From the NCBI GenBank assembly GCA_947568835.1, contig OX387604.1:16273076-16337075 (forward strand): a DNA stretch of 64,000 nucleotides. Direction: 5' to 3'. The position numbers and the translations under genes were made by a program. Origin of the DNA: Protonemura montana. Its lineage: Eukaryota; Arthropoda; Insecta; Plecoptera; Nemouridae. The first letter of the stretch is position 1; every line of letters begins with the position of its first letter. Below, one piece after another: positions 13,686-46,626 of the stretch. A model generated the notes under the pieces. That model ran no database searches. It worked only from the letters and a program-made list of their open reading frames with translations, and was not told the origin of the DNA.

Positions 13686-14532
13686 CTTCTCTTTCTGGTG
13701 AATTGCTATTGAAAGTGCTGTTCGTCAAAGTCACAATTACTAAAATTACGCTAGCCAGTAAGAAGAAAATAAAAAATACGACCACAATCAAAACAACTTT
13801 TTGGCGTCGTCGCTCTTTCGGACTACGATCAACTTTGCGTACATCAAAACGTTCAGAAAAGATAGAACTATTTCGAGAATCACTTCTAAATCTTGTAGAT
13901 CGAACGCTTGACTTCCGCAGAGGGAGATCCGAATTAGAACGGATGCTACTCTGTCTCTCTACCCGCGATGAATTTGTCTGCGAACCACTTCCGCTCAGCT
14001 TCCTCTGAAGCCGAGATGGATCTCGCTTCGTCTCGGTTGTGTCGTGCCGAGATATCCGCGAGCTTCGCAGACTAGAACTTCTTTTAAACGATCTTTGTCG
14101 GTATGCTTCAGACGTTTGCTCCGCTAATTTCTTCGATGATTTTCGTCTCAGATCAAAACCAATACCACCATCAATATCTTTACTTGGAATCAGTTCCTTT
14201 CTAGAATTACGAGTGCACGATTTACGGGAGATACGAACATCTGGAGAATGTTCTCTACTTTCGATGTTCGCTCTACAATTTCGTTTACGTTTCTTTTTTC
14301 TTAAATTCGGCGATCCTTCGGCTTCACAGTTCGAGCAAACCCCGATTTCATCTATAAATGTGACGCGATTGGTAATGGATTCATCTGATTCTCTGCTGAT
14401 TCTCCCTGGTCTTGGACTGTTCGTAAGACTTTTAGAAATATCCCGGCCATCGTCACTAGACACAGCCGAAGTATCCCCAGCTGCCAAATTCGCGAAATCG
14501 TGAAAATCATCTGCATATCCGTTCCTGATCAT
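13686..14532 (-). CDS. N-terminal exon of a predicted type II membrane protein (paralogue C)
   Basis: Minus-strand exon from the ATG at 14532 to a donor after 13686 (GAAG followed by GTACGA), phase 1, 282 complete codons. The N-terminal about 240 residues are hydrophilic and very rich in Arg and Ser (for example SFKRSSSLRSSRISRH), with a short GVCSNCEAEG. A basic stretch KERRRQ comes immediately before one hydrophobic helix (about residues 245-270). The charge pattern predicts N-terminus inside. NST follows the helix as a possible glycosylation site. If the donor is not used, the frame runs on 15 codons to a stop at 13639-13641, giving 297 residues. I prefer splicing because the phase and position match exons at 25067, 31333 and 37456. 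No function is recognised and no downstream exon was found. Confidence 0.6.
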
Positions 14533-17500
14533 TGCGCGCACAAAACTCTGAACAAGCCTCTGATCACACGCTTAAACTACATCTTGTACCCCTCCAGTCA
14601 CCCCTAGCCACCATCTTATCTTTCGCCAAGATTCGGCCAACGCACTGATAAGTTAACACGTTTCGGTTGACGTTTTTAACCGCTAAACAGCGTTGCTTTG
14701 CTCTGTGCCAGCTATCTGGCCGTCACTCTCTTTACGTTCCCGTCAACGTACACAGCGCGCTCCTTCGTATTTTAAACACAGCACCGTCTTTACTTGGTCC
14801 CGATTCAACTGCACACTGATTCACTTTACTGACTTGTGTAATTCACTGCTTGTCTCAAAATGTTTCATCTCTTAAAACTTGGAGCTCATCCTCGTTTCTC
14901 TAATGTGGTGAACCTAAATCTGTGGAGTCCAGTTAGACAGCCATGCGGTAAAGCGTCACTCCTCTCTGCCCCTCTTCTCGACATCCCGTATTCTCCCACC
15001 GACGCTCTGACGTCATTTTACAACGATGCTCGTCATTGCCGACGCTGTTTGATAGTTATTACAATTTTGATATGGCTATTAAATTCGGCGAATAAAAAAT
15101 ACTTGGAGGAGTAGGTATTATAACTTTTGAGTGGAGCATATTTTGGTTAAAAATGCGTGTCGTTAAATATAAACCTCCAACGAAACTCAAAAGCATGCCT
15201 AAGTATAAGTAAGATTTATATCAGCTTGGAGTAAGAATAGTCGCTTACTATGTGGGCCATGTGTTGCCGATACCAGCACAGGAAGATCGCACCTATATAA
15301 TTATTAACCTTTTTTGTAAGTTCTGCATATTTGAAAATGGCCGATGAGCTTGCCAAAACTTAATATTTATTAGAATGAAATTGAATTCGTTCTGTTGGTA
15401 TACCATGGTTAGTTTGCACGCATAAGGAAATATAATGAAAAGGACCAGCATAACGGCATCGGTAATTTTCCAACAACAGAACGGTGAAGAGGGCGAGTCT
15501 ATCCATGGGTGTGAATGTTGTTTTTGGTAGCACCGTTCGAAGCTACAGCTACAAGGAACTTGGGGGGAAAAACACATTTTGGGTTAGTGATCTTTGGCGA
15601 TAGACATGAACACTAAACGGACTCATTTTATAGAGTCTAGATGAAGCTTAATGTTTTTTACGTCGTATCCAAACGTTCCCTGTGCTTTTTTAACGCTAGT
15701 GAAAACTGCACATGTCCAGACTGAATGTATCTCGATCATAATTAAATTTCGATCCCATTCCACCCGTGTTCTAAATTCCGATATTTAACGAAAGCTATTG
15801 CATAGGTTGAAATACTTGTAGCAGTGTTTCATTTTTATTAAATCTTTATCAAATCTTTTCAACTTCACAAGAAATTTGGGAAGACACAATATTTTTTGTT
15901 GCAAGATGTTATTGTTTAAATGATATGGTTTGTAGAGTTTCAATGCTATTTTGTTTACTGATTTTACGAAATGTTAATGTAATGTGTTTGCAAAAACTAC
16001 GTTAACGCACAAAACAAACAATTAGCAAATAATGAAGAAAGTTCATGAATCGGAGAGAATAATAAATCATCCAGGAAGTAAAAAAAAACGTAATTTTATG
16101 TTTTTAGGGTTTACATTTTCTTTAGCAAAGTTTAAAACTGAACACTATTTATAGCAGGCGAACGAACGTTGACGTAAGCAGAGCAAGCACTGTGGAGGAG
16201 TGAAACAGGGCTATGGGGAATGGGTTATCCGCTTTGAGCAGTCTCCCCCCCCCCAACCTTCCTTCCTTGCAGCTTCCCATTTCTTCCCATCGTTCCCATC
16301 TCAACCCTTCTTCTTCCTTCTCCCTTTTCGCTTATCTTAAAACAAAGTTCCCATGCATTCTTAGCTCATTTAATGTGACCAGAGAGGAAATCACAATTAC
16401 TCGAGAGACAATATTTAGGTATATTTCGATCTTAGCTTTGTGTATGGTTAAAAATTGTGTAGAGTGTGTCATTTTGTTGATGCATTTTGTACGAGCAAAG
16501 CCTCAAAAACGCCAGATACATTTATTTGATTCGAGAGGTATTCGTAATAAGTTATAGCAAAGAAACTTCGAAACTGTATCTTGTTTATTAAATAATAATT
16601 CCAATGCGAGTTCGTACAATAATTTCATCTTCCACCTCTTATTTATCCACACACACAACAAAATTGTATTGTTTTGGGGAATGAACAATAATATAATTCA
16701 GTTGAGGTCAGTACTGCTTTTACATGTGATAGATGTCTCCTTGCGATGATTCTGTTTTGTTTGCTGGTTCTTCCCGTTTCTTTTCTGATCCTCTATTAGA
16801 TCGCATACTAAGGTTACACCACGGTTGATCGGGGAAGGGGGGTGGGGGGGGGGGGGAGGGGGCTCTTAACGTCTATACCAAAACATTTTCCTGATATAAG
16901 CCATTCTTGTAGCAGAATACCCGCCAGTCAACAACTAAGTCACATATTATCATGGTAAATTGATAAACTATAGACAAGCTCAATCATTTCTATCACATCT
17001 GAGAAAGCGAGCAAAAGAAAATGTTTAGATGATGTTCCTGTTGATCTGTAGATTCTCAATTGGCTCAAATGCATACACGTTTTGATACGAATTTCACCAA
17101 TTTCTTTGCGCTCAGCCATAAATTAAAATACTTCAGGTACACAGTCCTGAATCGCTTTACTTCTTGACAACTTTAGTCCTTTATACGTTGTTCAAACTCG
17201 TCTTCTCATTTTTATTTTATACGGACTCAAGTTATTGGTTTTCTCTGTCAATACATGAGAGTTTTAGAAGAGATTCGTATAGTGCTATCATAAACTTATT
17301 TACAATCCTGGTCAGCAGACCATCATGATAAGATTCATTCTATAGAATCCTCCTTGACAACGGCTTCAAATCTGGATGGAACATTGTCATGTAGGTATTC
17401 AATGAGATGGACACAACATCTTATCCTAGTGCCATTATAAGGGAAACCATGAAAATTCAATCCTTGTTATATTTATTTTTTAGAAATATTCAAGCATATA

Positions 17501-17582
17501 TCAAGAAAGTGAATCAAGTATACGTTAACATAAGTGTTATAGTTTTTATACTCATGTCTACTCTATCCAACCTCCGCAGGAG
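14533..17582. other. Upstream flank of paralogue C and intergenic DNA
   Basis: The first few hundred bases should contain the promoter of the minus-strand gene that starts at 14532. The rest holds no recognised gene. A G-run (16844-16856) and a C-run near 16246 are the only simple tracts. Confidence 0.35.
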
Positions 17583-17712
17583 TTTTGACAAACAATTTTA
17601 AAACTGGGTTTTGAATGCTGAGTGAAGAACTAAATCTCTCTTAATTTCTCATGGAAATTTAGTTGTTCTTCTTTTCGCATTCAAACCCCAGTTAAAAAAG
17701 TGTTTGTCAAAA
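17583..17712. repeat. 130-bp foldback (MITE-like) hairpin
   Basis: TTTTGACAAACA near 17583 returns as its reverse complement TGTTTGTCAAAA at 17701-17712. The arms also share an AACTGGG, TTTGAATGC and AACTAAAT order, giving arms of roughly 53 bases around a loop of about 20 bases (CTCTCTTAATTTCTCATGGA). No convincing target duplication is visible. It could be a small foldback transposon or a transcribed hairpin. Confidence 0.6.
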
Positions 17713-17799
17713 TAAGTGTTGTTATTTTGTAATAATTCTTAGTTGGCGCTTGAACTCTCTTAAAATCAGTATCAGAATCTGCTTTATAAGTCCATTTAA

Positions 17800-17857
17800 T
17801 TTTGCAGGTCAGTTGTAAAAATAGTGCGTCGTTAAACACCACAAATCAATCAATCAT
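17800..17857 (+). mobile_element. SINE 3' tail fragment
   Basis: GTCAGTTGTAAAAATAGTGC, then GTCGTTAAACACCACAAA and TCAATCAATCA: the end of the 5S-derived SINE family with its (TCAA)n tail. Only the last 60 or so bases are present. Confidence 0.6.
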
Positions 17858-20800
17858 GAAAATATAATCACTCTTTCATGACACTTTTTGTATTTCATTT
17901 TCATACTCGGTATACCCAAGAAGTTTCACCAAGTGGTCCAAGGTCATATCCCTCTTGACTTAAGTTTTGACCATAATCTCAGTAACTTGCAGGTATCTTC
18001 TATCACTAGTTTGCTATGTACGAACTATCAATAGGTAGCAACGAAAGGTATAACGAGCTAGCATTTTCTACCTCGTAATTTATGTAACACACTTTTAACT
18101 CGTTGCAAGATTATTCCATCGTCCTTGCTAAAATTTTGTCGGATAAAAAAGCGTTTATTGGTTTGCTTTCGTTGTCCGTTTTGCTTGCAACTAATAATTC
18201 TATACGAGCCATGAAATAAGCTAATTAAGTAATATTCACAGCGTACAGGAATACAATATACAAATTACAAAATATAATCGACGAGTAAGCATCAAATACA
18301 ATATATCCATTCCATTTCCGTTGAAAAAAATGGTGCCCGTGTCATTAGTTTGTTATTACGTAATTGGCATGATTAGTTGCTACCTTTTATCTGTTTTTTG
18401 TGCGGTGTATTTCTTGAGAGGAGCAGTTATTAGCTCACTGCTGGTGGTTGGGCATCCCACGAATCGATACCGGGTCTAGGGGTGTGGGGTTCCAGCTCGG
18501 ATACTGCTCCATGTGCCTATAGGAGCCAACTCCTGGAAGCGTCTTCCCCCCCCCCCCCCCCCTCCCCTCCCCCACCTTCCCCCACACCACCAAAACCAAC
18601 TCTCTCACTCTCGAAATTGTAGGTGTAGCAACAGCTGATCTGACTTACACTTCAACTGAGTGCAAAGAAACCCTCAAGAAACTTTGATTGATATTGGAAA
18701 ACAACATACTTTTTCATATAATTTTCCCTTAATTTTGAAGAGTATTTCTTTATTTCTTTACTATTTTTCTAACTGGGCATTAACCGTGATAGCCACATGT
18801 ATGCAACTCCGTAATGTAGATGTGTAGTTAAAATTGCATATCCACCTGCTATGTTACGAACCGGGGCGAGCGGGTTAGCCAGACGGGGAATTTTATCAAT
18901 AAATCAAACGAAAGCCAGTATTGCTATGACTTATTCGAACAAACACTAGAACCAGTAACTGTTTTAACATGCCGTATTTTTTAAAAATTTATCTCGCGTT
19001 TCGACTTCCCAATACGTTTTCCATTGCCAATAGGAAATTATATTTGGTGTGCAGCTACGTAGTAACGAGAGAGAAAGAAACAAATCCTAATGTATTTTAT
19101 TTCTCTCACTTGGTGAAGTTCCTGTGTGCTATTTTTACATTTCATTTCATTGCAATTTTATTTATTTCTATCGGTGCTATCAGTTCTGACATTCTGGGTA
19201 CAGAAACTAACAAATAGTATGTGCGGGTTTGCCACACAGATATTATAAAGATATTTCCTTTCGTGAGATTGAACGCATCTGTTAATATACTTTATGAAAA
19301 AAGTATATACACTTTTCTTCCGTTCAATTTCCACTGAAGATGCTATGCTTAGTAATTTTTAAACAAAAAAATTATTTTCTTTTGTAAGAAAATATTTCCA
19401 TTAGATAATTAATAATGTGTCACGTTTAGAAATTTTTAACAAGTACAATTCGAAGGTAAATTACACTACCTGGATTTAAACACTCGTTTAAATTCAAACC
19501 CTGTCCTAAAATCGGTTCTTTTGTACAATTTCACGAGGGTAATCATAAAGTTGCCGGTGCTGTACTGGTTATGTTTCCCACGCTTTACTCTCCAAGCATA
19601 GCTAAACAAAACACTTGAATCGATACCGAGCACCACGGCCAGCATCTCGCAAGGTAGGCTACGTTGATATTACTTGGTACTTGACAGCAAAGAAATAATA
19701 TTATGTTGCTACCTGAAAATAAAATTGTACACAGAGCTGTTCAACAGAATAGCCTATTTTAGCAGATAGTAAACTAGCGATCCATATCGTCCACGTACTC
19801 GAAACGCGAGGGATACGTTATTAATATCGGCGAATATGCGTTAATAATATAAAAGGGAAACATTTTACAAGAATTCACTTAGGGTTATAGTGGTAGACAT
19901 GGTTTTTGACGGTTTTATATGTTTTCAGTTCTCTATTTTTGTAGAGCTAGTTTTGAGGAAGAATGATTTTCTTTGCCTTTCGCGAAGATATGAAACAACA
20001 AGTGGGTTTCTAGTGAAAAAGCGATGACGTGGCGAAGACATGAAAGCTCATGTGTGTAAATTTAAATCTGACAGGGGGCTGGGACTATGCCAAAGATATT
20101 TTTCCAGTTCTTGAATGATTTTTATTTTCCTACTGTTAAAAGAAGATGAAAGGAACTGTCTTCCTTCTCTGCTTTCATTAATTAGGAGATATTCTCATTA
20201 TGGTCTGGCAAAATCTTTTGTTATTTTGCAAGATATTAGCAGATCAATCATACTAGCTGATATTTTTGTTACAATTGATATTTTCTGTTGGCAAACCACT
20301 GCTAATTCACTGCCTTATTTTGGTATTTGAATTTGCATTTTCATCTACGAATTCATTATAAAGAAAAACATACCAGCCTTCTATAAAAGTACCTTTTGTT
20401 TAGGTTCATCTAAAAGCTACTGACGGTTCTGGTTTTGTATATTCATAAATGGATCAGTCTATCTTTGCTCAGCTAGTTCATACGAACGGAGAGTTTATAT
20501 GAGCATGTATTTCTTGTCGTAATTATTAAGTTATTTGCTCTAAGATCAAATTGATTTTCTATCAGATGGTAAACACTTTCCAGCGGGGTAGTATATCGAC
20601 ATGTCACTCTTTGACACATTTCTAAGGCTATCATTTGGCTTACAAAATCGATCTTAACGTCTTTAAGCATATATCTGATCCATGTTTGCTTACAAAAAGC
20701 AAACGCAGTTACAAAGTTAAAAGCATACATCTTATTTCCTAAGAAATGTACTCGCCCCTCATGAAATTCGTGCGTAGAAGTAGAATTTTATTAACCCCCA

Positions 20801-23800
20801 TCATGGTCAGTTTCACGCATGCATGCAGACACGGAACCAAATAACCGTTAACCAAGCGCTTACTCTGTTTACTATTACAGTACATAGGATGATAAATCAG
20901 CTGGCAAATTTTCCCTGGTTTGTGCTTGTAGGTTAGTACGTACGGCTATGGCTGATTACTGATTACATAGTGGCTACGCGCTCTACGATTTAATGTGGAA
21001 TTAAAAAGTTGCCTCAAGAAGCAGATAATATGTGTGACCATGCATGTCCGAGCCGAGCTCCAATTAGAATGGAAATCAGGTCGGTGAATGGACCAGAGAA
21101 ATATTTCCCCGCCTGGAAAAGCTTTATGGTCATTCAAGTCATTGCTTTGTTTTATTTCTTGGTCGAAAATCCGCAGAAGCGAGCTCACAAGTGCTCTTTA
21201 AACAAGAATTTAACACTAGAAAAGGTCAAAATATACAATGCCATTTCCTTTTATTATTGTATATTTGATTAAAAATAAAAATATATACTTTCATATAACC
21301 TATGGTTTTTGTTCCTTAAGCAGTGAGATCACAGATGATGAGACCTTATCCATATTTTCCTTTCTTAGTGAATACGAACATTTTCAAGATACTATTATAA
21401 AGGTTGGAAAAACTCAATCAGTACCATTATTTTGTTCGCACTTCCCTTCCATTAAAGACTCCTTTTTTCGCTGTTCAAATAACAGAAGGGAACGCATAGT
21501 CTTTCGGCTGCTAGAAACGGCCAAATATAGTTAGTGACTTGACAATTTCGTTTCAGGCATTTTATTAGAACGCTCTCAAGTGTACCTCTTTTGCTGTATT
21601 TCAAATTACTTTTGTGTATCAATCGTTATGAGCTTTGCTGGGATTATCTTCTCTTTTGCTAGTCTTGTAAATAATGTCAATGATGTCAGCCTATGCTTCT
21701 GTGAGTCTCAAGTACAGCTCAGAGTTCATTTGATTTAACTTATTCGCAGTCTCTTTACATTATTATAATTTACCAAAGAACATCGACATCATGGTTTCAA
21801 TTTTGCGTTTCTTCTCGTGAATTTCTTCTCGAATTGACGAACTTCTCGTCAATATTTCATTAATAATATATCGACGCAATAGTATAATTTGTTCGTATTA
21901 TTTAAAAATTATAATTTCAGACGGTGTATGTACCTTGAAACATTCTTGCTAATTTTCAAAAGCTTATTTGTTCTTTATGATGGAAACATCCCCTTCAGGT
22001 ACTAGCAACTTGCACAGTGAACTGACCCAGCCTTATAAGTTCATATGTCAAGTCATCAGTATATAATTCTACTTATACCCACATCCCTTAAAGTATTTTG
22101 TGTCCCGAGCACCAGAAGCTGTCTAGCTTATTCATGTGCTACACGCCAGATATTCACCATTTCGTTTGCCCCCATTTTATATTTTGGAAAGTAACGTAAT
22201 TTTCTTGTTTACCAGCAAGAATAGTGGAGAATAACTATAGTATGCCATGGAATTTAAATGCATCTGGTTAAATTTGTAGCAGTACTTTCATAATTACCAT
22301 CATAATTTCAAGGGTTCAACCATGTCCACTGTCTCTTACATGCTAGCTGTTAGCTAGGGTTATGTCTGGTAGAGATTCCATCTCGTTACCCGGACGATTC
22401 CATCTGGAAACATGCAGGGGATGCATTCTATCCATAAATTAAAAGCAACTAGCGAGTCAACACAAAACCACTGTTTTAGTTCTAAATGAAAAGTCTCTCT
22501 GAATTAACATGTGTATCATGTGTCTCTGTGAAAAAGAAGAGCGTGACTGTGAAATAACACAGTTTTTCCCCCGTTTGATGGGAGAACATCATGAACTTAT
22601 GTTGGAATGAAAAATTATACACATGCCCTGAGAAAACAATGATAAAGCAGAGATGGTGCACTTCAACAAACAAATATCGTTCACAAAACGCATCCAGCGA
22701 TGAATTTAGATGTGGAAATGAGTAAGTATGCGATAGTAGTTAGCTGCAAATGACACAACACGTAGCTCTTTACAAGAAATGATGTGTGTACCTACGCGAA
22801 CAAAGCTTTTGTAAAGGAAGTGCAATTTTAAGGTATGAATAAATTTCCTCATACCTTAGTAACTTTCTTTCTATGTCAGTTGGATTTGTGTCAACTATCT
22901 TGATTAACAAATTAGCTTTTAATTACTTTTATTGCGACAGTGGCAAGGTGACATAAGGGCTATTCAATCCATAATTAGTTTTTTTTATAACTCCTTGTGC
23001 ATTGAACAATAACTGTGCCCGTTCCATAACTTTGATCAATTGAGCGACAGTCACCAATGTTACTCATATGGACATCCATTCTTAGGTATAAAACCGCGAT
23101 TTCTCTCCGTTTCTACAACATTCATTCCATTTTTTCAGCCAAAATAAAACTCAATTTTAATTGAAAATATTTTCATATCATGTGTTAATTGATGGAATTT
23201 CTATCAGCGTCTCGGCATCGGCGCTGCATAATCGAAATGTTGCAGCATTGCGTTCTAGCATGTTTCCCGTGACCCGCCTGCCTAGCCACATGCATGACCT
23301 GAAATATACGTTAAGTTCCCTAGTTTTCAAGTCGCGGTATGGGAGTTATCAGGACCAATGCTCACCGTCAACGTGACACAGTTCTTGTTTGAAAATAGCG
23401 TGACTTTGTAGACTTAAAATTTGCATTTAAAGATCACATAGCTACGATTTTTTATTGCGTAATAGAATAAGAAATTTTCGTTCGCATAAGGTACGTCGCT
23501 TTCGCGTGGTTCAGAGCTGTCTTGAGGAACTCTATCTGAACTCGTGTTTTATTTAAAATTACTCGTTCACATTTTAAGAAAAATAAGGGACTAATTTTTC
23601 AATTTTCCTTTAAGTCTCTCTCGATAAGTTTCTACGACCTTATTTCTTTCTTGCTGACATTTCATACGATTGAATTCTTAACAATACACAATTATCTTAC
23701 CAATCAGGTAAACGGAATCAGCTGTACGCTATTCCGCTTTCAATTTCGTAAAGTAACAAAACAGATAGGATGTGAGCTTCTTTACAACGTGTTTTTGTGT

Positions 23801-25066
23801 ATTATGAGACTCTTTGAGTCACAATAGCATCACAGTGAATGAAGTTTGAAGTTTTAAGTTTGAACTCCTAGAAAGCATGTGATTTGCTTGAATTGAGTAC
23901 AATCTAGCATGCGAGAGAAGATCCCAGTCCAAGGACTGCCCCTCAGCATTGCTACACATGAATGAAATATCAGTTTTGATTTTAGTGACGGGATTTGAGA
24001 GTACTTATTATCTCTGCAAAATAGTTCCAGTAGTTCTTATAATTGCTAAAAAAATAACACATCTTGGCCCGAAAATAGCCGAAAAATTATATTATCTTGC
24101 TGAACGGTAAATAGGAATTTTGATGTACTTCTTAATGAAGAAGTTGTAGAAGTACTACTTAATGATGAAGCGATTATGTTGAACACAAACTGGTCGTCGC
24201 TAATATTGCTACAGGTGTCCATTTGATACCAGATCTACTAGATAGTAGATAGGTAAACGGACGATAGCGCAGTATGTGAGGTGGTGGCGATAATTCAATC
24301 AATAAGCTCCTCATCTATATCCCTCACCCAGTCCCTATCACCACCACAGGGCTAACCGTCCCACCACCCGCGTACCACCACCAGCCCATCCATTTGCCAC
24401 CCAGTCTAACCGCTCTTTGGAGCGATTCCCTGTACTCATCCCCGTTCACCCTACATCGATATACCTTGTTGACACTATCCTAAATTGCTCTTGAGAAAAA
24501 TCATCGAGAAGAAATATTGAAGAAAAGAGATAAATATCTTGTAAGTGTACGTCTTTTCTTGGCATATAACTTTCGTTTTTAGGTCAATGGCGAAGAAAGT
24601 TGTATTCTGCTTCGATCTAAATAAGTAATGTACCCGAGCGAAATTTATTTACTCAATGAAAGCTTTTGACGTTTTTCAAATATATTTTGAAGGAAATTCT
24701 AATTTTTATTGATTTTTAGAGTTCTGTCTAGACGAAAAATCTTGACATTGACACCCTTAAATAAAACTACTGTTGGTAAGTCTCATGATGTTGGGTTCAA
24801 GGAATAACGTGTGAATATACGACTACTCAACTAAATCCTGTAAAATCTACCAGTACCATCCGAGCGCCGAATAAAGAAAGCTTACAGCTACGTTACATTC
24901 GTTCCCGTCGATACGAAAATAAAAATAAAATACCAATACTTTAAGCGTGCATTTCCTTCGATAAAAACAAACGTGCGTGTATTCATTGAACATCCTTACA
25001 AAACCGACGAGGGAAAATGATAAGAGAACTGCGACACATCGAACTACGTCCCTAAGCATCACTTAC
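17858..25066. other. Long stretch without a recognised gene
   Basis: About 7 kb without a supported coding region. A 17-base C run lies at 18546-18562 within a GC-richer block (18410-18620) that may be an unrecognised short repeat. Another GC-rich island at 24255-24460, with many CCACC motifs, is also unassigned. If paralogue D continues downstream, its next exon (phase-1 acceptor) could lie here, but none could be chosen. Confidence 0.35.
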
Positions 25067-26586
25067 CCATTTCATCAATGATCGGTGCCATTCTCAGAGT
25101 AACGCCAACCAGAAGAACACTCATGAGTAACAAGAGACAGGCAGTAGCTATAATCGTCCATCGTGCTCGTTTTGGTAAGTCTTCTGGATCTATTCTCTTT
25201 TGACGCTTAATGTGCACTTGATCAGATCGCTCGAGATGCATTCGGTGCTGCTTTCTTCTTCGCTTCCGCTTCCGTCGTCTCGCTGCTTGCTCTTCCTCTT
25301 CTTCTTCTTCGTCCACATCCATCTCCATAGTGAGGGACACGTGGTCTACTTCTCCACGAGACACCAAAATCTTTCTGACAAACATGCGAGGAAATTGCCG
25401 TCAAATTATCGAACATTTATGAGACCGCTATAAACGAAATAGACCACCTACACAATGATTGTATTGCTCAAGAAAAATCTTTGTTCGTTGCTCATATGAA
25501 AATGTCACTTTATTAGAGGAAGTTCGGTCTTTTCCTCTATTCTAATTACTGAATGCAGCGAAGCGGAATTCAGTTTCAATTATTCCGTTATCGACCGATT
25601 TTTTTTAGCGTGAACAAAATTAATAAAACGTACATTTAGTGAAGCTAAAAATAATGCTCCATGATGGAAATGGTCAAACACGATTTTTCTTGTTACAATA
25701 GCAAAAAAATGTCGACGATTCTAGTAGTGTGAAATAAAACTACTTGCGATTGCGAATTGGCTGGAGTTGTGCAGCAGGAGGCCGATACCATCATATTTTG
25801 GTTAGTACATGCCCCCGGATTGTAACTGTAATTAGGATATCCCGCATGGTACGGCGAATTCTGGCAGCTCGTCGAGGGCCCATGACCTGCGACCATGTGT
25901 TCGTTCAGACTATATCGGCTCCCCATTTCATTATCATCACTAAATGTCGTTTCAGCGAGATCCGTTGCACTTTTCGTCCTTAAACCATCTTTTCGATCTT
26001 CGGAATAAATCCCATTTGTTTCATTACCAATCTGTTTACAATGATGACAGTGAGTATGTAAATCACCTCCCATTTCATTTTCAACCGGCTCGTGCGATTT
26101 TATGTGATGGGTGCGATATCTTTTCTTTGGAAAAAGTAGTCCTGATGATAGCAGTGCTGAGTCTGATTGTCTTTTGTGTTTGTGGTGATGATTTCTGTGA
26201 TTACTGTGATGGTGATGGTGGTGATGGTGGTGATGATTTTTTTTGTGTTGATGCAGCGGCTGATTATATTGCGGTAAGGGAGGATTCTGTACCAAAGATT
26301 CTTGATGCGATGACGATGCTGTTGACGTCGAAGTCAATCTCTGCAGCTTGCCCTGATGTCCGCTGCTCAAGCTGCGCGGTCTCGACGCAGCTTTCTTCGC
26401 TTTTCCGGCAGCTTTGATGGCATTCACCTTGCTCTCCACCAAGGCAGAGAGCACAGCCTCCAGCCGCACCAGCTCCTCGGCGGTATTGGTCGGTAGGGGT
26501 GCCTTCCCTCCGCAGGCATCGATAGAGTGATCTTCGGTCGAGACAGATTTATCCGCTACATCTGCACTCGGCCGCATCATAACCAA
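25067..26586 (-). CDS. Two-exon N-terminal part of a predicted type II membrane protein (paralogue D)
   Basis: Exon 1 is 26586-25697 (phase-2 donor TATT then GTAACA, weak) and exon 2 is 25374-25067 (acceptor TTTGTCAG, phase-1 donor GTAAGT). Exon 1 encodes about 296 hydrophilic residues with a helical region around 35-68, a run of ten His (118-127) inside a longer His-rich patch, and a CHHCKQ pair. Exon 2 encodes an eight-Glu run, a strongly basic RRRKRKRRRK, KRARW and one transmembrane helix at about 369-390 followed by LRMAPIIDEMG. The positive-inside rule predicts a cytoplasmic N-terminus. The last stretch resembles LRMAPAIDAKG in the gene at 37456-39738, so the two are paralogues. The exon 1-2 link rests on phase only; exon 2 could also have its own start (MEMDVDE). 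The C-terminal part was not found. Confidence 0.55.
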
Positions 26587-27888
26587 ACTCGTGGAAGGGT
26601 TGCAACCCTTGCCGTTGCAGCCAATGCCATTCCTCTCACATCACCAAAGCGCACCATCTCACATATCCTGAGAGTCAAACATCATTCAGGTTATTACTGG
26701 AGGAACCACTCTCATTTAGAACAAACTGATGGAATGACTTAATAAACTGTCACTTATCAACCATTCATGCATTCATCCACATGCCATACTTAAACACATG
26801 CCAACATTCATTCGGATAATTTGTTTTAATATAAAACAAATTAATTATTTGTGTGCGGTTTAATTAAAGTAAAACGATCGCTAGTCTCAGTTAATTGCGT
26901 GTGATTATATCTTTATAGCGCGGCTCACGAATTAGTGTTTACGTTCGAATAACACTGCAGCGTTTCCAGTGTGCATCAGTTAGTTTCATCGTTATGGGTG
27001 TAATGCCGAGTTTATCGCAGTTCTACTTTTATGTAGTAATATAAACCTGCGTCTCTAGGATCCGCTCTCTTCCGCTCTGCGCTACATTCTCGAGGGACCA
27101 AACAGGATTCCACAAAACCCAGATCTTCGTGTTTACCAGGCGCCACTTTCCTAATTCGATTACTACCATGAAAGAAGATGACTCGTTTAAAATGAATACT
27201 AAACCCCTTGGCATAGTTCGAGTTAGGCCACTGGCTATCCCTCAATCCAAGCCTAATTTTGATTCTGCTTCTATCATCCTATACTATTTTGACAACATGG
27301 CTCAAATGAAATCTTTGCCTGAGAAAAATTGGTATTTTCTTCTTGGCGGCTCAGTGTATTTGGAGATGAATGTTCCATGTCAAATTCATTTTTCAATTCT
27401 CTTCGGTGCACAGTACATTTTATTTTCACTTTATTAGATTTTAGTTGAGCGTTTCTTTTTATTCAGCCAATTGAAATCGAGGTTGAGTTTTTTTGTTGCC
27501 GAATAAATAAACGAGGATTCGATGACTGCCTTTCATTTTCCGACATTATATCGACATATAGTACGTTTCGAGTTCGTAGTTTCTAGTTACAGTTACCACA
27601 AATCAGTACTCTTAAACTGACTCGCTTTGCTCTAAATCCTTAATTACACGAACTAGAGAATGAATCTTTGATTGGTTGTAAGCTCATGGTGAACATCGCA
27701 AAGCGAAAGGAGATAGTAGTCCGTGCTTGACTTTAGAATAGAGAAGGAATCTTTTCGAGCTTCTTGGCTTTTCGTTTAAACAATTCCTATTCCCCATACA
27801 TTAAGTTTATGCATAATGCATTTGTAAAGATGTTAAGAATGAGATGGTTGTTTTTCTGGAGCAATTCCAAACGATGTAAAGCCGTAAG
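26587..27888. other. Upstream flank of paralogue D
   Basis: Expected to hold the promoter of the minus-strand gene at 26586. A plus-strand frame at 27129-27437 and an overlapping minus frame have no family signature and are not accepted. Confidence 0.35.
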
Positions 27889-27900
27889 CTAGAAGTTAAA

Positions 27901-28235
27901 CCAGTTCTGTTCGGGAGAGAGTTCGGAGGGATGATTGTTAGTACAACAACTTCATTCGCCTTGCTTATCAACCTCTTGACAGCATGGATTTGCGGAGGAA
28001 TCCTGCTGTTTGAGTTGTACCGTCCTCCGAAAGGGACGTTAAGACTGTGGACCCCTTAGTGCTCTTCGACAAGAGTAGGCTACGTGCCGGCTTCGGGTTT
28101 CCCCTCCTCCCTTCTAGGCTAGGTTAGGTTCATCATCATCGTCATCATCATCCACTCATTCACCGAAGCCACCAGTGCCACTGGGCCAGTTGTCAAAACA
28201 GCGCGTCGTTAAACACCTCAAACTAATCAATCAAT
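27901..28235 (+). mobile_element. 5S-derived SINE, 5'-truncated, with target duplication
   Basis: Starts CCAGTTCTGTTCGGGAGAGA and runs through GCTTATCAACCTCTTGACAG, GGAGGAATCCTGCTGTT, AAAGGGACGTTAAG, GGGTTTCCCCTCCTCCC and a (TCATCA)n-like stretch to GCGCGTCGTTAAACACC and the tail AATCAATCAAT. It is flanked by a perfect 12-bp duplication CTAGAAGTTAAA at 27889-27900 and 28236-28247, which proves insertion by a retrotransposition-like process. The 5S head is absent, so the copy is 5'-truncated. The clean duplication suggests a fairly recent insertion. Confidence 0.85.
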
Positions 28236-28247
28236 CTAGAAGTTAAA

Positions 28248-31200: not shown

Positions 31201-31332
31201 CACATATCTCAACCCACAATTAATATTACCATCTGTGGAGAACGGGGAGAGAATTGGTATGGGAATTGGTATCCATGCAGGCAATCAAACCAAATACACA
31301 TTCCCAAAAATTCTGACTTTCGTCTCACTTAC
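28248..31332. other. Stretch without a recognised gene
   Basis: No supported coding region. A minus frame at 29305-29553 is basic and protein-like but matches nothing I know and has no clear splice partners. A GC-richer block at 30300-30560 might be a diverged SINE, but its promoter-like boxes are too far apart for a tRNA head. Confidence 0.35.
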
Positions 31333-31391
31333 CCAACTCATTAATCTGCGGCAACAAATAGAATATGGCCAAGATGATTGAAACAGCAACC
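31333..31391 (-). CDS. Possible transmembrane exon of a further paralogue (F)
   Basis: A 59-bp minus-strand candidate exon. Its acceptor is a long pyrimidine-rich stretch ending TTTTGAG, it starts with one base completing a codon, and it ends at a strong phase-1 donor (TTGG then GTAAGT). It encodes VAVSIILAIFYLLPQINELG: a short hydrophobic run, then LPQINELG, which can be set beside MAPIIDEMG and MAPAIDAKG at the same phase in the neighbours. No N-terminal exon could be assigned. It could be a decayed copy or chance. Confidence 0.3.
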
Positions 31392-31539
31392 CTCAAAACA
31401 ATAATAGAAAAAGCAGAAAAAATTGTAACTTTTGATTTGTGTACATACTCTTTGTTTGAAGTCTCACAGAAATGATCATTGTACAGGAGAGACCTTCGGC
31501 AAAGCTAGAACTTTAGAAATCATTTCAATTGATTGTTTC

Positions 31540-32123
31540 TCATATATTTTCGATCCTTTGCGAGCACATAGAGGCACATAGAGGCGCATAGAGACATGGT
31601 ATAAGCATTTGATTACTTTCTGATCTTGGATTGTGTGGAAAAATCACTTTTCCAAAATTCCAGTTCTCCTGGCAAATGGATAATATCATCACTATTGTAA
31701 CAATTGAGGGTAAAGAACTGTTGGTCACAGGTGTGGTCAAGCCGCTTTGAATTGCTACAGGAGCTTTCATAAACACTTTGCAATCTTTTTCTTGGACGCT
31801 ACATCGTCTTTAATTCTTTGACAACACCACCACCAAGAATATTACCGTGGTATGTTTTCTGAGATTTTCCGGAGCCAAGAGTTTTCTGTTTCCTTTGCGC
31901 TTTTCTTGAGAACTGGAGTAACCCAGGACTCTATGTAAACGGTTTGCCAGTGGATTTCAGTTTTCCTTTCATGACAGTCATTTTCCGATGCCATGGGCAT
32001 TTCCAGGATACAATCATTGTGGTAGTTCATATCTGTCTGGAAGTTCAACATGTGGATGCGTTTCCGCAATTTGAATAAGAAGAAGGGTAATAATCTCGTC
32101 AACGATACGCGAAATTTTTTCAA
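31540..32123 (-). pseudogene. Decayed coding-like stretch, family unknown
   Basis: Minus-strand frames at 31842-32123 and 31540-31776 have protein-like composition (Cys, Trp and His spread through them), and nearby frames do as well, but none forms a continuous gene. I do not recognise the family. It may be a dead gene or the remnant of a mobile element. Confidence 0.3.
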
Positions 32124-33014
32124 AGTTATTGTTAGGTTTATGGATTACTTTGAGTCATAGAATCTTGGAAGCTTTTCAGAAGGAACGCTCTCCGTTTCAA
32201 GAACGTCTTCTTTCACATGAGTTCCATTTCCAACTGATTGAGTTCAGGATCGGATTGTTATGGTGTAACAACATGTTATGGTGCACTTATCTGTGCAATT
32301 TGTATGTGCTTTCGACCAATTACCCCAGCCTCTGACCTTTTTTATGACCGAAAAAAAATCGATTTTCCTCTGTTTATGCTAAATGTCTTAGCTCTTCCAT
32401 CGAAGAACAATCAGCTTCGCGTAAACTACGATTTTTTTTTTTTTTTTGTAAACAAAAAACATATTTACACATTACTTCCTAAATATTTGTTATTTTCTGG
32501 CAAAGCAAAAACATGCCAAACATACAATTAATTCAAATAAACGTGTGACATCATTCTGGCTTCAGAAGATAAATGATCTTTTTCTTTCTAGATACGCCCA
32601 TCTATGCCTATTTCTAATTCTAAATCACAAACCATTTCGAGTTGATAGATGAATTATAAATAAAAACATGTCCTGGCACCGTTGTGAATTGCGTGACAGC
32701 TGACCAAAGCGACTTCTGAATAAGTTATTGTCAGCGTGGATGATTTTCAAAAAGTGTGAACATAAAATTGACGCTATATTTTCGACTACTGCCGTCCGGA
32801 AATGATACCAGTGAAAAATGGAAATTGTATAACATTTCTAGCTTTATCAGTTTGAACACACACACACTGGTTGGTTTGAATAGAAATAATCGACCGCTAA
32901 CACCTAAATTTAATCTTGGTTGCAGCGTTAAAAAAGGGGCGAGAATAAATCATGGTCAAATGTAGTTAAAATGCCAAATAATTAGCATAAAACATCTGTC
33001 TTGGTCTTCAAAAG
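32124..33014. other. Left flank of the long-TIR transposon
   Basis: AT-rich, no supported gene. A T-run near 32432-32446 and a short (CA)n at about 32858-32868 are the only simple tracts. Confidence 0.3.
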
Positions 33015-33017
33015 ACT

Positions 33018-33596
33018 TAGTCTAGGAATATCGAGCGGCTATCTCTTCAAATAGAGAAGTTAGGATATTCGGTGTTATATAAAGCTGAAATTTTGATATT
33101 ATGTGCATAACACCATGACACAACTATTGTCACAAACCCGGACAAAAAATTTTCATCGGAAGACATTCAAAAAAATTACCAAAGTCAAAATTTCTTAAAA
33201 AATGAAAATTTCTTAAAAGTTGAATAAGTATGTCATTTTTGAATTTATAAACGTCTAGTTTCCGCAGAAGCCTAGGCATTAATACGTTATATCGATGCCG
33301 TTTTTAAAAAACATCAAAAAGTTTTTTCTAACCTATGATATGAGCCAAAAAGTAGCTAAAAAAACGCAAAAAAAATATATACCACTTTTCACTTAATGCC
33401 ACGGGACTAAATATTGGCCAAATGTTATAAAACGAGTTTGTGAAGATAGCTGAAATCATTGTCTACAAGACTGCAGATCTAACTTTTTGAACACGTCAAG
33501 TTGACAACAGAGATTTTTGCTTTGCCCTACGAGAGGTAACTCTTGGCGCGCTGCCAAGCGCCGATAAGCCGTGCGGCTGGCTAGCAAATAGCATGC
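33018..33596. repeat. Left terminal inverted repeat
   Basis: About 579 bp, matching the reverse complement of 35996-36564 with scattered differences. The most different patch is about 30 bp near 33035-33065 (ATCTCTTCAAATAGAGAAGT on this side). The inner limit is near GCATGC at 33591-33596. Confidence 0.85.
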
Positions 33597-33639
33597 TATT
33601 GCTTGGAACGCTCTTGATACATCCATGCGTGCGTACATC

Positions 33640-34277
33640 ATTGAAGCGTTTCTTCGTCGGCATTGTCGATCATGTCACTATAGGCATTGTAGCATTCCCT
33701 ATCACACCTGCATACGTCGATGCATCCAATTCCATTGCTATTGCACGTGCAAGTGGGGTTTATGCTGCAGGATTTCTTGGACTTGATTGAAATTTTGCAA
33801 CGTTTCCATGGCTGTTTGACCCTCGAAATATACAGGTAAGACGAACTTTCTGCCCAGGCTCTGACACCAGCCACTGTCTTCGGGACCTATCACCACAAAT
33901 AATAAAAATAATAATAAGAAGAAGAAAAATAGAGACGACATTTAAATTCTAGTTCAAAAACCTCTGATAGCTTTGAATATTACTTTGGCAAACTTAAGCC
34001 ACATTTTTGGAAATTGCACGTGCGAGTTTACCTAAGTGCTACATTGCCATGCAGCTCGTCGAAGGTGCTGATGAAATGCCCCTTCGCTCGGGAGTATTTT
34101 GGCAATTGAGATAGGTCGCGACACTGATATCTTAAAACGCAGCGCATTTAGCGAGTAATGATACTGTCGGAATTTCTTGTTTGTATCGTACAATTTAACC
34201 ACCAAACTTCGAGCAGTGCTCACCTTTTCCAAAATGTCTGAAAAATTGGCCAAAAGTGACAACTCGTCTCGGGTCAT
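33640..34277 (-). pseudogene. Transposon protein fragment (C-terminal part)
   Basis: Remnant of the same protein. 34277-34032 has ELSLLANFSDILEKV and the LRFKISVSR...LPSEGAFHQH block. Near 33790-33640 a Cys-rich tail (CTCNSNGIGC, then CRCDREC) closes it in another frame. The gene is not intact here. Confidence 0.5.
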
Positions 34278-34612
34278 TTTATTCAGTTGACGCCAGATCC
34301 TGTTTTTACCGATTCCGAAAAACGTTTAAAACAGTGTCACAGCCGGACAGTGCATGGGGCTGCAGGTAAAGCGATGCTTATTGGGAGCCCAATTTTCAAT
34401 GCAATTTCGTGTACAGGAATGAACCGATGTGCATAGGTGCTTTTCCCGACTGATCCCGTTTTTGCTGATATAACAGCCCAATAGAAAGAAAATCTGAGCA
34501 CATGATGCCTGGGAGGTTTCCTGTGCAATAGTGGAATGAGATGGTTTGGTCTTTGCTGTTGCTAATTAGTTTATTGTGTATTAAATACTTGTAGGTGACA
34601 CGAACTTGCCAC

Positions 34613-35020
34613 TTAAGTGTCTACACCCTCAGCAATGAGGAATTCCCTGTATTTTTCGCAAACGTTGGGAATTGGTATAATTTTCCATCTCCTCATTTTA
34701 TCCGAAATAAACGCTTGTGTGTTGACAGCAGCGCGATCGTATTGTGAGACGGTTTGGACCTTTTTACATGCCTCTATGCTGTTAGCACTCAGATATTTCG
34801 ACAAACAATCTGCATGGTAGCTGGCGTTTACCTCAAAGAGGGAACCGAATGTCATTCGATTTAAAATTACCTCGTCATTTCTCTCTTTGGTTGCTTTCAA
34901 TACATTTTCCCTAAGAGACTCCGGATTCATGTCAACGAGAGAAACTTTACGTCCTGTCTTGTTTGTATCTCTTAATTGATGGATAATGAAACGGTATATG
35001 CTCCAGTCAAACTCTGGCAT
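34613..35020 (-). CDS. Transposon protein fragment (N-terminal part)
   Basis: 135-residue frame inside the long-TIR element, opening MPEFDWSIYRFIIHQLRDTN. It contains SYHADCLSKYLS and a helical KYREFLIAEGV. In-frame codons upstream (basic, Pro-rich) suggest the original protein began further right. No catalytic DDE or DDD residues can be assigned by eye. Function in transposition is inferred from location only. Confidence 0.5.
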   Translation of the reverse strand: MPEFDWSIYRFIIHQLRDTNKTGRKVSLVDMNPESLRENVLKATKERNDEVILNRMTFGSLFEVNASYHADCLSKYLSANSIEACKKVQTVSQYDRAAVNTQAFISDKMRRWKIIPIPNVCEKYREFLIAEGVDT

Positions 35021-35995
35021 TGTTGAACGCGATACCCGTTTGTTTGGGGGTGGTGTTTCACCTCTGTTTAAGTTAGGGGACTCGAGCCTACGTTTTTTGC
35101 CATGTCAATATTTTTTTTGTTGGTGTACTGCTCTCTGCAACTTCCTTGCCTTGATATTTGTAAGGAAAAATTTGATACCCTTTCTTGCTTGCTTGATTTA
35201 TTGTTCTTGCAATATCATTGTCTTTTGCTTATTAGACCCTTTTCTGTTATATTAGGAACATTCTCGCTGGTTAGGAACGCTAACTGAAAAAAATTTCCAA
35301 TACCTGTGGTGGAAATTATTTTTCTAGATTCTGTTGTGGAGGGTTCGCAGCTATCTCCTGTTTTCTCTGCTAAGTGAAAATAGTGAATAAAATTAACTGT
35401 CATGTTAACATGGATCTAGTATGAGGAAGCATGCATTACTACATACCCATACGTATTGCTAGTTATTCCGTTTTGTAGGCGATCTTTTCACTTGCACAAA
35501 TAAACAAAATCATTGCTGAGTAACTAGTGAATTAGTGAGTAAACAAGTGAGTTTACGCGCATTTTATTTATCTTCATGCCATTTGCATTCCATATATTTG
35601 GGAGAATTTTCAGAAATTATCAATAATATTCGTCGTCCTGCTTTGAAAGTGAGTAGGAAACTAACTGGCAAGCCAGCAAACTAACCCTGCAAGCCATCGA
35701 AACCCATGTCAAGTGGATATACCTCGACAAATCTGTTAGTCTTCTTGAAAATCATTATCTCGGATTCTGTAGATCCTCAAACCTCTGCACGTGGTTAAAA
35801 CAGAGCAAGGTATGGTTGATATATTCGAATATATAACTTTTTTTTTTATGTAAAAATCAAGAAACAGACCAAATTTACAGACAAAAAACAAAAAGCCTCG
35901 AATTTTAGGTAAATAATATGAAATCAAGTGCGGACCTAACGTAGTATCAAAGAGCCTGCGCACTCAACGCTAGTATGTCATTCAAAGCACCCTAC

Positions 35996-36564
35996 GCATG
36001 CTATTTACCAGCCAGCCGCACGGCTTATCGGCGCTTGGCAGCGCGCCAAGAGTTACCTCTCGTAGGGAAAAGCAAAAATCTCAGTTGTGAACTTGACGTG
36101 TTCAAAAAGTTAGATCTGCAGTCTTGTAGACAATGAATTGAGCTATCTTTACAAACTCGTTTAATAACATTCGGCCAATATTTAGTCCCGTGGCATTAAG
36201 TGAAAAGTGGTATATTTTTTTTTTGCGTTTTTTTAGCTACTTTTTGGCTCATGTCATAGGTTAGTAAAAACTTTTTGATGTTTTTTAAAAACGGTATCGA
36301 TATAACGTATTAATGCCTAGGCTTCTGCGGAAACTAGACGTTTATAAATTCAAAAATGACATACTTATTAAACTTTTAAGTAATTTTCATTTTTTAAGAA
36401 ATTTTGACTTTGATAATTTTTTTGAATGTCTTCCGATGAAAATTTTTTGTCCGGGTTTGTGACAATAGTTGTGTCATGGTGTTATGCACATAATATCAAA
36501 ATTTCAGCTTTATATAACACCGAATACGGACACGCCCCTTTTTGCCGTCGATATTCCTAGACTA
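35996..36564. repeat. Right terminal inverted repeat
   Basis: About 569 bp, starting at GCATGC (35996-36001) and ending CCTAGACTA at 36564. It is the mirror of the left arm. Confidence 0.85.
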
Positions 36565-36567
36565 ACT

Positions 36568-37024
36568 GTCAGGGAATTTAAAAAATATATAAACGTTTTC
36601 TAGAACAATCCGAGTATGCATTTAACTATTATACCTCACTCTACCTCTTCTATCTCTACCTCAATACATACATAATGTATTTTTGACGAAATACTTATTA
36701 AAATGAAATAGTCTAAGCTAGTACTCTCGTATGTAAAATTAAATCCCACGCTCTCTTATTTATACGAGCCAAGCTTTTAATCGATCGGTGGGTCAATAAA
36801 TCTAGTAGAAGTAAAAATAACAATAAGGGGGATCTTGTCATGGAGTAGTGAAATAATATCCAACCTTACAGATCTACAAATTATTTCAGTTCGAGAAATA
36901 TGATATAGAATTTAGGGTTAACGTAGACTTTAGATATTAATATAAACTGTAAAGCATTATTATTCCGCGTAACATAAACACAACCTTTAGTGTCTGATCT
37001 TTACCAAAAGGTGTGGTGTGTTGA
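36568..37024. other. Gap between transposon and SINE
   Basis: AT-rich, no gene recognised. It contains repeated CTACCTC and CTCTACC motifs near 36635-36665. Confidence 0.3.
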
Positions 37025-37425
37025 AAGTTGAAACACTGGTTCTCGGGCATCACCAAAGTTAAGCAACTCTGCGCTGGGTCATGCATTGAATGGGTGACCA
37101 TCATCATAACATATACATGACCAGTTCTGCTTGGGAGAGAGGTTGGGGGATGTAAGTTAGTATAAAAACTCCATTTGCCTTGCTTATCAACCTCTCGACA
37201 GCATGGATTTGTGAAGGAATCCTGTTGTTAGCGTTGTACTGTCCTTTGGAGAGGACGTTAAGCCGGTGGTCCCCTTTGGTGCTCTTGTAGGCTACTCGCC
37301 AGCACCTGGTTTCCTCTCCACCCTTCAGGTGTATCATCGTCCACTAACTCACCCACGTCAATAGACCAGCAACGTAGAGTCCCGTTGTCAAAACAGTGAG
37401 TCGTAAAACATCCCACGAGTCAATC
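37025..37425 (+). mobile_element. Near-complete SINE with a 5S rRNA-derived head
   Basis: The head (37036-37100) reads CACTGGTTCTCGGGCATCACC, AAAGTTAAGCAACTCTG and TTGAATGGGTGACCATCAT, which follows the 5S rRNA internal control region in order (A box-like, intermediate, C box-like). The body shares GACCAGTTCTGCTTGGGAGA, TTGCTTATCAACCTCTCGAC, GAATCCTGTTGTT and CACCCACGTCAATAGACC with copies at 27901, 53599 (minus) and 10427. It ends AAACATCCCACGAGTCAATCAATT. It lies in the intron just downstream of the minus-strand exon at 37583-37456, in antisense orientation to that gene. No target duplication could be found. Confidence 0.8.
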
Positions 37426-37455
37426 AATTCACCTCTATCTCGAAAATCGACTCAC

Positions 37456-39738
37456 CTTTCGCGTCAATGGCAGGTGCCATTCTCAGAGAAATCGCAATAA
37501 GAAGGACAGCAATAATGAAAATTCCAGCGGCGAAAATGCTTATCACCAAAGCCAGTCTGCGCCTTTCGCTTCCAGCACTGGACCTGCAAATGACACGGAT
37601 ATTTTAGCGTCACGAAGTCAGCACACCACGTTCTTGAGCAGCTGTGTGTTATGCTCATATCTGTTCGAATCCCTGAAGTCCAATTATGATTCATTGGAAA
37701 GTATCGACGATGGGTCACTGCTATCCCCTAAAATAGCATTCAATGGCATACGTTTTTGTGCGAATAGCTTTTTTTAGGTCGTTTACGTTGCAAAATTGTC
37801 TGGTAGAGTGCTTGTAAATATGCATGAGCAGTATTTGAAATATAACATTTCCAATCATTTGAAATATTTTGAGATATGGAAGGTCACACAGAGCATACTT
37901 TTGCGATATAGCTGCTACACGATACCAAACTGGCAGTGAGATGGAGATTTCACCGCTTTGGGAATTATATCACAGCCTTTTGGCAATTGCTAGTTTAAAT
38001 CGTAGTTCGAATTTTTAAACAATTATGCAAACGTATTGTAACGGCTTTTTCTGACAGATCCCGAGGTAAAAACAACATGAAAAAAGAAACTTATAATTTT
38101 GGAAAGGAGTACAGTGTAAGAAAGTATTTTTATGCAGGTAATTCTAAGTTATGTTTCTTCTTCAGTAGGATCTAAGCGCATAAAATAGATCTGTAGCAAC
38201 GTAATAGGTAAGAAGGTACGTACCAATTCAATTCTTCCCACAAAGTTATTTTTATTTATTTTTTCTGGCTGCCACAATGTAGAAGGTGGGGCCGTTAGTC
38301 GCACATGATGTGTTTCAATGTAACTTCTGCATATTTTATATTTTGCATTGCAATTTAGTAAAGCTAGATACTTGTCAAGATAGTTTAATTATGACATCTG
38401 ATTGCCACCAACAGAAATTGTATTAACATTCTATATTTTAAAATAATCAAAGATCTTTAATCTTTCACGAAATAATTTACCCTCCGCTCTAAAAAAAAAA
38501 TGTTGCAATAAGCAGGCAATAGTGACATCGTCTTGAACGTGCAAAATCAACTAAACCGATCAAATCCTGTACCAGTGGCACTCCTATTTGGATACGACAG
38601 CAGTTGTACGAGTCGGCCTCACTCGCTTCAGAAATACTTGAGTATATAGAAAACGATTTTCCGATGTCGGGCGAAGCCATATTGTTTCACATGCAAGTAT
38701 GTCGTTTAAATAATGACAAAAGGTACAGAATAGGGCTGCAGATTCTATATTAAAATAGTTAATAAGTTCGCATGGAAATTCGTTCAGCGCTGGGAGATAA
38801 GAATGTCGCCCTTTGTTTTTTTGTCCGGGTTGTTCATTTTTGGGATGGTATTTTCCATAATACAGGTTTTATAAATTTACGTGGTGTACTCGGAGGTTGC
38901 ATGAATGTTTTGGCAACTCTCCGGTGTCACGTGGGGTTGCAGGGTTTGCTAAGTGTGTGCTCGCACGGGTCAGGGCTATTTTATAACCTGTGCTTCGTAG
39001 CGTGCCTTTAATAATCTAAACAAACTTTTTCAACATTCTACCCACTAACAGTTCGTGCTAGATCATAATCATATGCTACATGTACTATACTTAACCTGCA
39101 GCTTACTTTTTTTACAATTATCAACGTGTGAGTAATTCAAATAAATCTGTGCCAAAGGAAACAACTTTTAAACGAGGAAATCAAGTGGTGAAGATCAGTA
39201 AATGAAAAAATTACCTGAGATAAATGCGATACTTAGTAGTATGTACGACTGTCACACTATATCAAATGAACTAAAATGGCTTTAATTGGATAGTGAAAAG
39301 AAATTTGACTAAATCCATGTTTACATACATTATTTGCTGTTCTTCCACTTCTTTAACTGTCTTTCTTCGTTTGGTCTTATTGCATTTCTTCTTCTTTTTC
39401 TTGTTGTGGTCGCTGACTTTTTTTCGTCTACCTGTCCTCGCTTCGCGAAGGGTGCCAGGAGTTGTCAGTACCTGGGACCCTTGGCCCATAGAACCGTGAC
39501 CCGTGGAACTATTCGGATTGTAGCTACATAGTGATTGTGACCGAGATATTGATGTGAATATCTTATTACTCTGACTTGCAACTGAAGGAGATCTCGAACC
39601 CACTAGAAAGAGTGGATAATTACTACCAATACTACTTGATCGTAAAAAAGGGTCCATCGCCAATGAGTGGAAATTATCTTTATCACCCACATTTTCCATT
39701 TCAATTGTATCGTAATCCAATACACCCCTTGAGGCCAT
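37456..39738 (-). CDS. Two-exon N-terminal part of a predicted type II membrane protein (paralogue E)
   Basis: Exon 1 is 39738-39329 (phase-2 donor AAT then GTATGT) and exon 2 is 37583-37456 (acceptor ATTTGCAG, phase-1 donor GTGAGT). They join in frame. The ATG at 39738 has an in-frame TGA six codons upstream. Residues 1-136 are hydrophilic, with Ser/Asn/Gly-rich sequence and a Lys-rich NKKKKKKCNKTKRRK. Exon 2 gives SERRR, one transmembrane helix (about 147-170) and LRMAPAIDAKG. The basic residues before the helix predict N-terminus inside. The end of exon 2 resembles paralogue D both in sequence and in splice phase. No C-terminal exon was found before the next paralogue; a SINE and the long-TIR transposon occupy the space immediately downstream. 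Confidence 0.6.
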
Positions 39739-46529: not shown

Positions 46530-46626
46530 TTTTTTTTTTTTAATCTTTCTTGAGCAGGAGACTTATCAGCGTCTGAATCCGATTTAGGCGGATCAAGCTT
46601 CTTCGAACAAGTAAGGTACTCATAGC
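46530..46626 (-). pseudogene. Orphaned former C-terminal coding sequence of UT1
   Basis: Reading the minus strand past the hAT element in the UT1 frame, TATGAG continues open: YLTCSKKLDPPKSDSDADKS and then a Lys-rich stretch. The composition is that of a cytoplasmic transporter tail. The element at 46627-47393 now separates it from the rest of the exon, so it should no longer be translated unless the element is spliced out. The frame stays open further left (to about 46390), but that part may not have been coding. Confidence 0.45.

Follow-up and report, generated by a model that had tools for sequence, protein, structure and literature searches.

The window analysed here is a stretch of 64,000 nucleotides from Protonemura montana (C16:16273076-16337075, in a genome of 258 Mb and 34 contigs); positions are counted from its first letter, and negative positions lie to its left. 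The left part of the window carries plus-strand EGF-repeat genes below 9.9 kb, which we take to be Nimrod genes. The frame at 8300-9883 matches EGF-repeat models in a profile search, and the same kind of search gave no match over the cut-off for the plus-strand frame at 3132-3755. About 20 tandem copies of a 48-bp unit occupy 1129-2103, with long open frames on both strands. Beyond the left edge of the window, the plus strand carries repeated exons encoding HHEMGH, presumably from angiotensin-converting-enzyme-like genes, and the minus strand three long repetitive frames that we assume to be vajk-like and that make up the strong minus-strand exons of the left 100 kb. Judging from synteny, the neighbourhood presumably corresponds to an insect Ance/vajk/Nimrod cluster. 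To the right of the locus described below, the minus strand carries urea-transporter exons (PF03253) at 42241-49488, apparently from two tandem genes; six matches to PF03253 were reported genome-wide, all of them at 42.2-48.7 kb. A look-alike of these exons on the minus strand near 57.5 kb (57444-57563) is perhaps another, going by its appearance.

Between these neighbours lie four exons that each encode one hydrophobic helix, here called anchor exons A to D (Table 1). Exon candidates were scored with a simple codon model combined with generic splice-site weights. The codon model was built from the first stop-free frame of each of 23 training intervals out of 26 (2,721 codons), the other three being dropped as they had no open frame; the training set included this locus's exons at 13.7, 25, 26, and 39 kb and excluded the end exon at 13264..13149. 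All four exons share one strand, as the initial annotation had stated; they are open frames on the minus strand, on which downstream is leftward, and scores of 19.4, 32.2, and 25.4 were obtained for 37583..37456, 25374..25067, and a candidate at 14480..13686, respectively. The further claim that every exon stops at a phase-1 donor also stands, and the locus thus has tandem 5' exons of equal outgoing phase (donors 37456, 31333, 25067, and 13686). The helix had been described as ending a few residues before the donor, which does not apply to exon D, where it ends about 13 residues ahead of 13686. The basic residues ahead of the helix point to an N-terminus on the inside. Exon D is probably a first exon, as it has its own ATG at 14532 and no acceptor scoring above 0.8 in 14620-14400; when left unspliced, its frame continues for 15 codons beyond 13686 to a stop.

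Table 1. Minus-strand features of the anchor-exon locus, from right to left (downstream is leftward).
Feature	Coordinates	Strand	Description
Likely first coding exon	39329..39738	-	begins MASRGVLDYD; tail rich first in Ser and then in Lys; last 2 nt belong to a split codon
Anchor exon A	37456..37583	-	128 nt, in phase 1/out phase 1; RRR, helix, LRMAPAIDAK; donor 8.3
Anchor exon B (weak)	31333..31493	-	161 nt with poor acceptor 31493; helix, LLPQINEL; donor 5.2
Rival short ATG exon	26428..26519	-	total 7.5, coding 3.5, donor 4.0; phase that exon C needs
Long His-rich open frame	25744..26580	-	lies immediately upstream of exon C; about ten consecutive histidines; no clear partner exon
Anchor exon C	25067..25374	-	308 nt, in phase 1/out phase 1; acidic, then basic tail, helix, LRMAPIIDEM; donor 5.2
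Anchor exon D (probably a first exon)	13686..14532	-	tail of some 240 residues rich in Ser and Arg, then helix and TNSTFNSNSPERE; donor 3.9
Proposed shared terminal exon	13149..13264	-	V-RKENEQLMQSFGDENVYNATPSTATTLDPAGATNTST-stop; acceptor 4.4, coding 6.0
AATAAA, possible poly(A) signal	12769..12774	-	375 nt past the stop of the end exon

Several repeats are interspersed with these features. A 531-nt inverted repeat lies between exons A and B (33066-33596 and 35996-36526); its arms are 97% complementary and separated by 2.4 kb, and the whole resembles a mobile element with long inverted termini. An interspersed repeat is found on both strands at 37107-37343, 27810-28124, and 53597-53969 and in the left flank. 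The segment at 37.03-37.13 kb resembles 5S rRNA by eye, and an Rfam search of 27.6-37.5 kb returned no match at E up to 0.1.

We searched both strands of 214 kb for a hydrophobic helix closely followed by a donor with a score of at least 4 and obtained seven sites: 37456, 31333, and 25067, three sites in the urea-transporter genes (48481, 48162, and 44630), and a phase-0 site at 93852. Outside the urea-transporter genes, the donors of exons A, B, and C are thus the only good-scoring phase-1 donors after a helix in these 214 kb. Relaxing the donor threshold to at least 2 gave 12 sites, a count that does not in itself show whether 13686 belongs to them. The closely similar ends of exons A and C are present as first described, and their likeness, which none of 20,000 shuffles reached, is beyond chance. 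Across the 258-Mb genome, a DNA pattern for LRMAPxID has two matches, one in exon A and one in exon C, and the reversed-pattern control has none. The end of exon B is in the same register as both when anchored at the donor (P of 0.0027 with 37456 and 0.0014 with 25067), with values of 0.073 and 0.017, respectively, when 13 shifts are allowed. Exon D has no LRMAP-like end, with anchored P values of 0.15, 0.83, and 0.91 against the other three exons; over shifts, the best value is 0.027 with 25067, and the others are 0.46 and 0.91. Taken together, the helix-donor scan, the end similarity, and the motif rarity place the observation beyond chance for the three exons A, B, and C, while it is chiefly its position, strand, and phase that place exon D with them.

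The initial annotation saw no C-terminal exon for any of the four, but a good candidate lies at 13264..13149, in matching phase and separated by a 421-nt intron from donor 13686. Terminal candidates with an acceptor of at least 2, at least 8 residues, and a compatible phase were ranked from 37.4 kb to -14.6 kb, and this exon is first among 120 with a total of 10.5, against 7.0 for the next. As far as sequence prediction goes, it is a downstream terminal exon of matching phase with no rival of comparable score. Its acceptor reads ttgcag followed by TCAGG, such that each of the four donors, leaving a single base, would yield GTC (V), followed by RKENEQLMQSFGDENVYNATPSTATTLDPAGATNTST and a stop. 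A charged stretch comes first in the 38 encoded residues; the Thr/Ser-rich end after it contains two N-x-T/S sites, N-A-T and N-T-S. The G+C content of the exon is 51%, compared to 33% and 31% in its flanks. Acceptors of the needed phase that score at least 4 number 430 in 214 kb on both strands, and only nine of them open a frame of at least 20 residues that is as coding-like; six of the other eight, judged by position, coincide with other genes or long open frames on the same or the opposite strand, leaving 75171 and -80134 unexplained. A shared part beyond the left edge of the window was also considered and rejected, as the strong minus-strand exons of the left 100 kb are the vajk-like frames and the in-phase terminal candidates from 13 kb to -14.6 kb, apart from 13264, reach at most 7.0. 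Farther left, a terminal candidate at -91389 has a total of 10.5 and encodes 74 residues.

We consider it reasonably probable, at roughly 0.6, that the sequence represents a single gene on the minus strand, about 27 kb long (39.8 to 12.8 kb), in which interchangeable tail and anchor exons are joined to one shared end of 38 residues to yield a set of single-pass membrane proteins. Exon candidates, phases, ranks, and motif rarity were computed; splicing to the shared exon is our inference from the phases, the ranking, the rarity, and the lack of rivals, and the orientation and function given here are likewise suggestions. Each protein would possess a cytoplasmic N-terminal tail, a single helix, and a short C-terminal stub facing outward or into a lumen, with the tail and helix supplied by one of three or four tandem exons and the stub by the common exon 13264..13149. 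The predicted junction in the products of exons A and C would be the LRMAPxID end followed by V-RKENEQLMQSFGDEN. The lengths of A and C are a multiple of three plus 2, as is that of B if 31493 is used, and these exons would take one base for a codon and leave one base. Since A and C both enter and leave in phase 1, a transcript containing both would be out of frame; two anchor exons in one message would break the frame, and they would thus be used one at a time. A single anchor between an exon that leaves two bases and an end exon that takes two would keep the frame. Exon D, with its own ATG, would probably also have its own promoter. The variable tails may pick cytoplasmic partners, while the stub would keep the outer or luminal partner, or the location, the same throughout.

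Of the two readings put forward in the initial annotation, this is closest to the second, which proposed interchangeable tail and anchor modules spliced to a shared downstream part. That much fits best, but the shared part appears to lie within the window, at 13264..13149, and not past its left edge. The Nimrod genes would therefore be found beyond the gene and not in its intron, as had been proposed, the plus-strand EGF-repeat genes below 9.9 kb being downstream of a minus-strand gene. Likewise, the shared extracellular part that had been envisaged gives way to an exon of only 38 residues, and thus to no large extracellular domain.

The 5' end of the proposed gene bears on a narrower version of it. 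Among ATG exons of the phase that exon A needs between 37.6 and 46 kb, 39738..39329 scores highest at 8.2, with 4.4 for the next when its own shorter starts are excluded, although this exon was part of the codon training set. Its donor is weak (1.6), which counts against the model, as does the total of the rival start at 26519..26428 (7.5 against 8.2), which is upstream of exon C in another frame of the His-rich stretch. The obvious tail for exon C, the long frame 26580..25744, was tried and rejected because it has no donor above 1 in its frame with the needed phase, a lack that likewise counts against the model, and it is left unlinked. Exon C also has a possible in-frame ATG of its own at 25328 or 25385. 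It could be reached from 39329 or from 26428, or it could start at its own ATG, and 26519..26428 could be a start for exon C alone. Given these observations, we regard it as unlikely that the exons are purely mutually exclusive cassettes, with A, B, and C alternating between a shared 39738..39329 and the shared end, and with D as a separate first exon or a gene using the same end. The phases of A and C (and of B with its poor acceptor) and the top rank of the start exon are what such an arrangement would produce, whereas its shared 5' donor is weak, and exon C has its own in-frame ATGs, a rival start, and an adjoining long open frame.

It is rather unlikely that exon B, and perhaps exon D, is decayed or spurious, with only A and C functional. 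Exon B has no in-frame ATG upstream of its helix and its acceptor 31493 scores -0.1, and exon D lacks the common end motif; the poor acceptor and the different end of exon D also weigh against the proposed gene as a whole. However, exon B retains a good donor and its in-register similarity to the others, and exon D is an open frame of 282 codons whose coding score is positive in its own frame only, albeit with the exon itself in the training set. That the codon model was trained partly on this locus, and on the first stop-free frame of each interval, is a further point against the shared-exon model.

Another possibility, the first reading of the initial annotation, is that these are tandem paralogous genes in which each anchor has its own private short C-terminal exons and the 13264 exon serves only exon D. 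The anchors are 6-12 kb apart and their tails differ, the open frame at 26.6 kb hints that exon C has an N-terminal part to itself, and a single intron separates exon D from the end exon; as 13686 is the nearest donor to it, the end exon could be private to exon D. However, the three gaps between the anchors contain 9, 9, and 17 terminal candidates, the best of which score 6.1, 5.0, and 6.3, respectively, and internal exon candidates of the required phase in the four gaps do not exceed 4.7. A second end exon was also sought, and a protein search of the genome at E up to 10 returned the end exon alone; of the 2,022 acceptor starts compared over 214 kb, the runner-up scores 18 for likeness, against 151 for the exon itself. 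The genome-wide absence is weak evidence, since exon C, searched against the genome at E up to 0.001, likewise retrieved only itself and missed exon A, and diverged copies of a short exon could escape in the same way. With no comparable in-phase exon between the anchors and no second end exon found, this reading is weakened and appears rather unlikely.

Searches of known families did not place the proteins. No Pfam family exceeded its cut-off for exons C and D, for the frames at 26.6 and 39 kb, or for three spliced pieces containing A, C, or D; two frames and two spliced pieces likewise gave nothing over the cut-off in NCBIfam, and a search of the PDB with one spliced piece, containing anchor C, yielded no match with an E value of 1 or less. 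Exon D matched itself and one other site, at E 0.43 and with three stops. Pattern searches of viral and prokaryote contigs for relatives gave 29 and 198 matches, none of which was confirmed. Candidate single-pass families fared no better. A scan of 164 kb on both strands for Gly-X-Y runs of at least five triplets, shorter runs being missed, gave six, none collagen-like by eye, and a transmembrane (type II) collagen was rejected. Membrane dipeptidase (M19) was set aside, as none of its 28 exon matches in the genome is on this contig. A TNF ligand (Eiger type) domain had 0 matches in the genome, but the controls also gave none. One open-access library contained no paper on MAPIIDEM or on an alternative-first-exon type II membrane-protein gene in insects, and among the matches listed for the Nimrod neighbourhood, none appeared to deal with this gene.

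The closest parallels in gene layout come from insect gustatory receptors, in which the alternative exons encode most of a multi-helix receptor. We take fly Gr23a, Gr39a, and Gr28b to have the same layout of tandem first exons and one end exon. These three genes are described as producing two, four, and five proteins by splicing, respectively (PMC6307266). A study of beetles (PMC11302349) describes Dendroctonus ponderosae receptors with two or more tandem first exons followed by a single C-terminal exon, and adds that none of the Trypodendron receptors has this layout. The locus described here resembles such genes in its tandem alternative 5' exons and predicted single C-terminal exon, but each of its anchors encodes a single helix together with a tail that is charged or rich in Ser. 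A multi-helix domain was not found, there being one helix per exon, and no Pfam receptor family was over the cut-off for exons C and D or for spliced A, C, and D. The layout is thus of a kind known from gustatory receptors, while the protein is not of that family. Clustered protocadherins and UGT1A likewise join variable 5' exons to constant 3' exons, with the variable part outside or luminal and the constant part forming the helix and tail. The proposed gene shares the variable 5' exons and constant 3' exon, but in it the tail and helix would vary and a short stub would stay constant. In Dscam1, duplicated exons are mutually exclusive. Exons of the present locus would also be used one at a time, two in one message breaking the frame; unlike in Dscam1, there are only two or three such anchors, kilobases apart, and one module probably has its own start.

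In a more ambitious form, which we offer tentatively, a single gene in an insect immune-gene neighbourhood would swap tails and helices on a constant outer stub, combining frame-enforced, one-at-a-time anchors with a separate first exon, and would be a mirror image of protocadherin-type diversity, varied inside and constant outside. If this is true, the locus would be an example of compact tail-swapping diversity, in which one stub is presented with several cytoplasmic domains, the choice being set by promoter choice or exon exclusion. It would also offer a clean test of frame-enforced exon exclusion arising by exon duplication, and would add an unnamed membrane-protein gene to what we take to be the angiotensin-converting-enzyme-like/vajk/Nimrod cluster.
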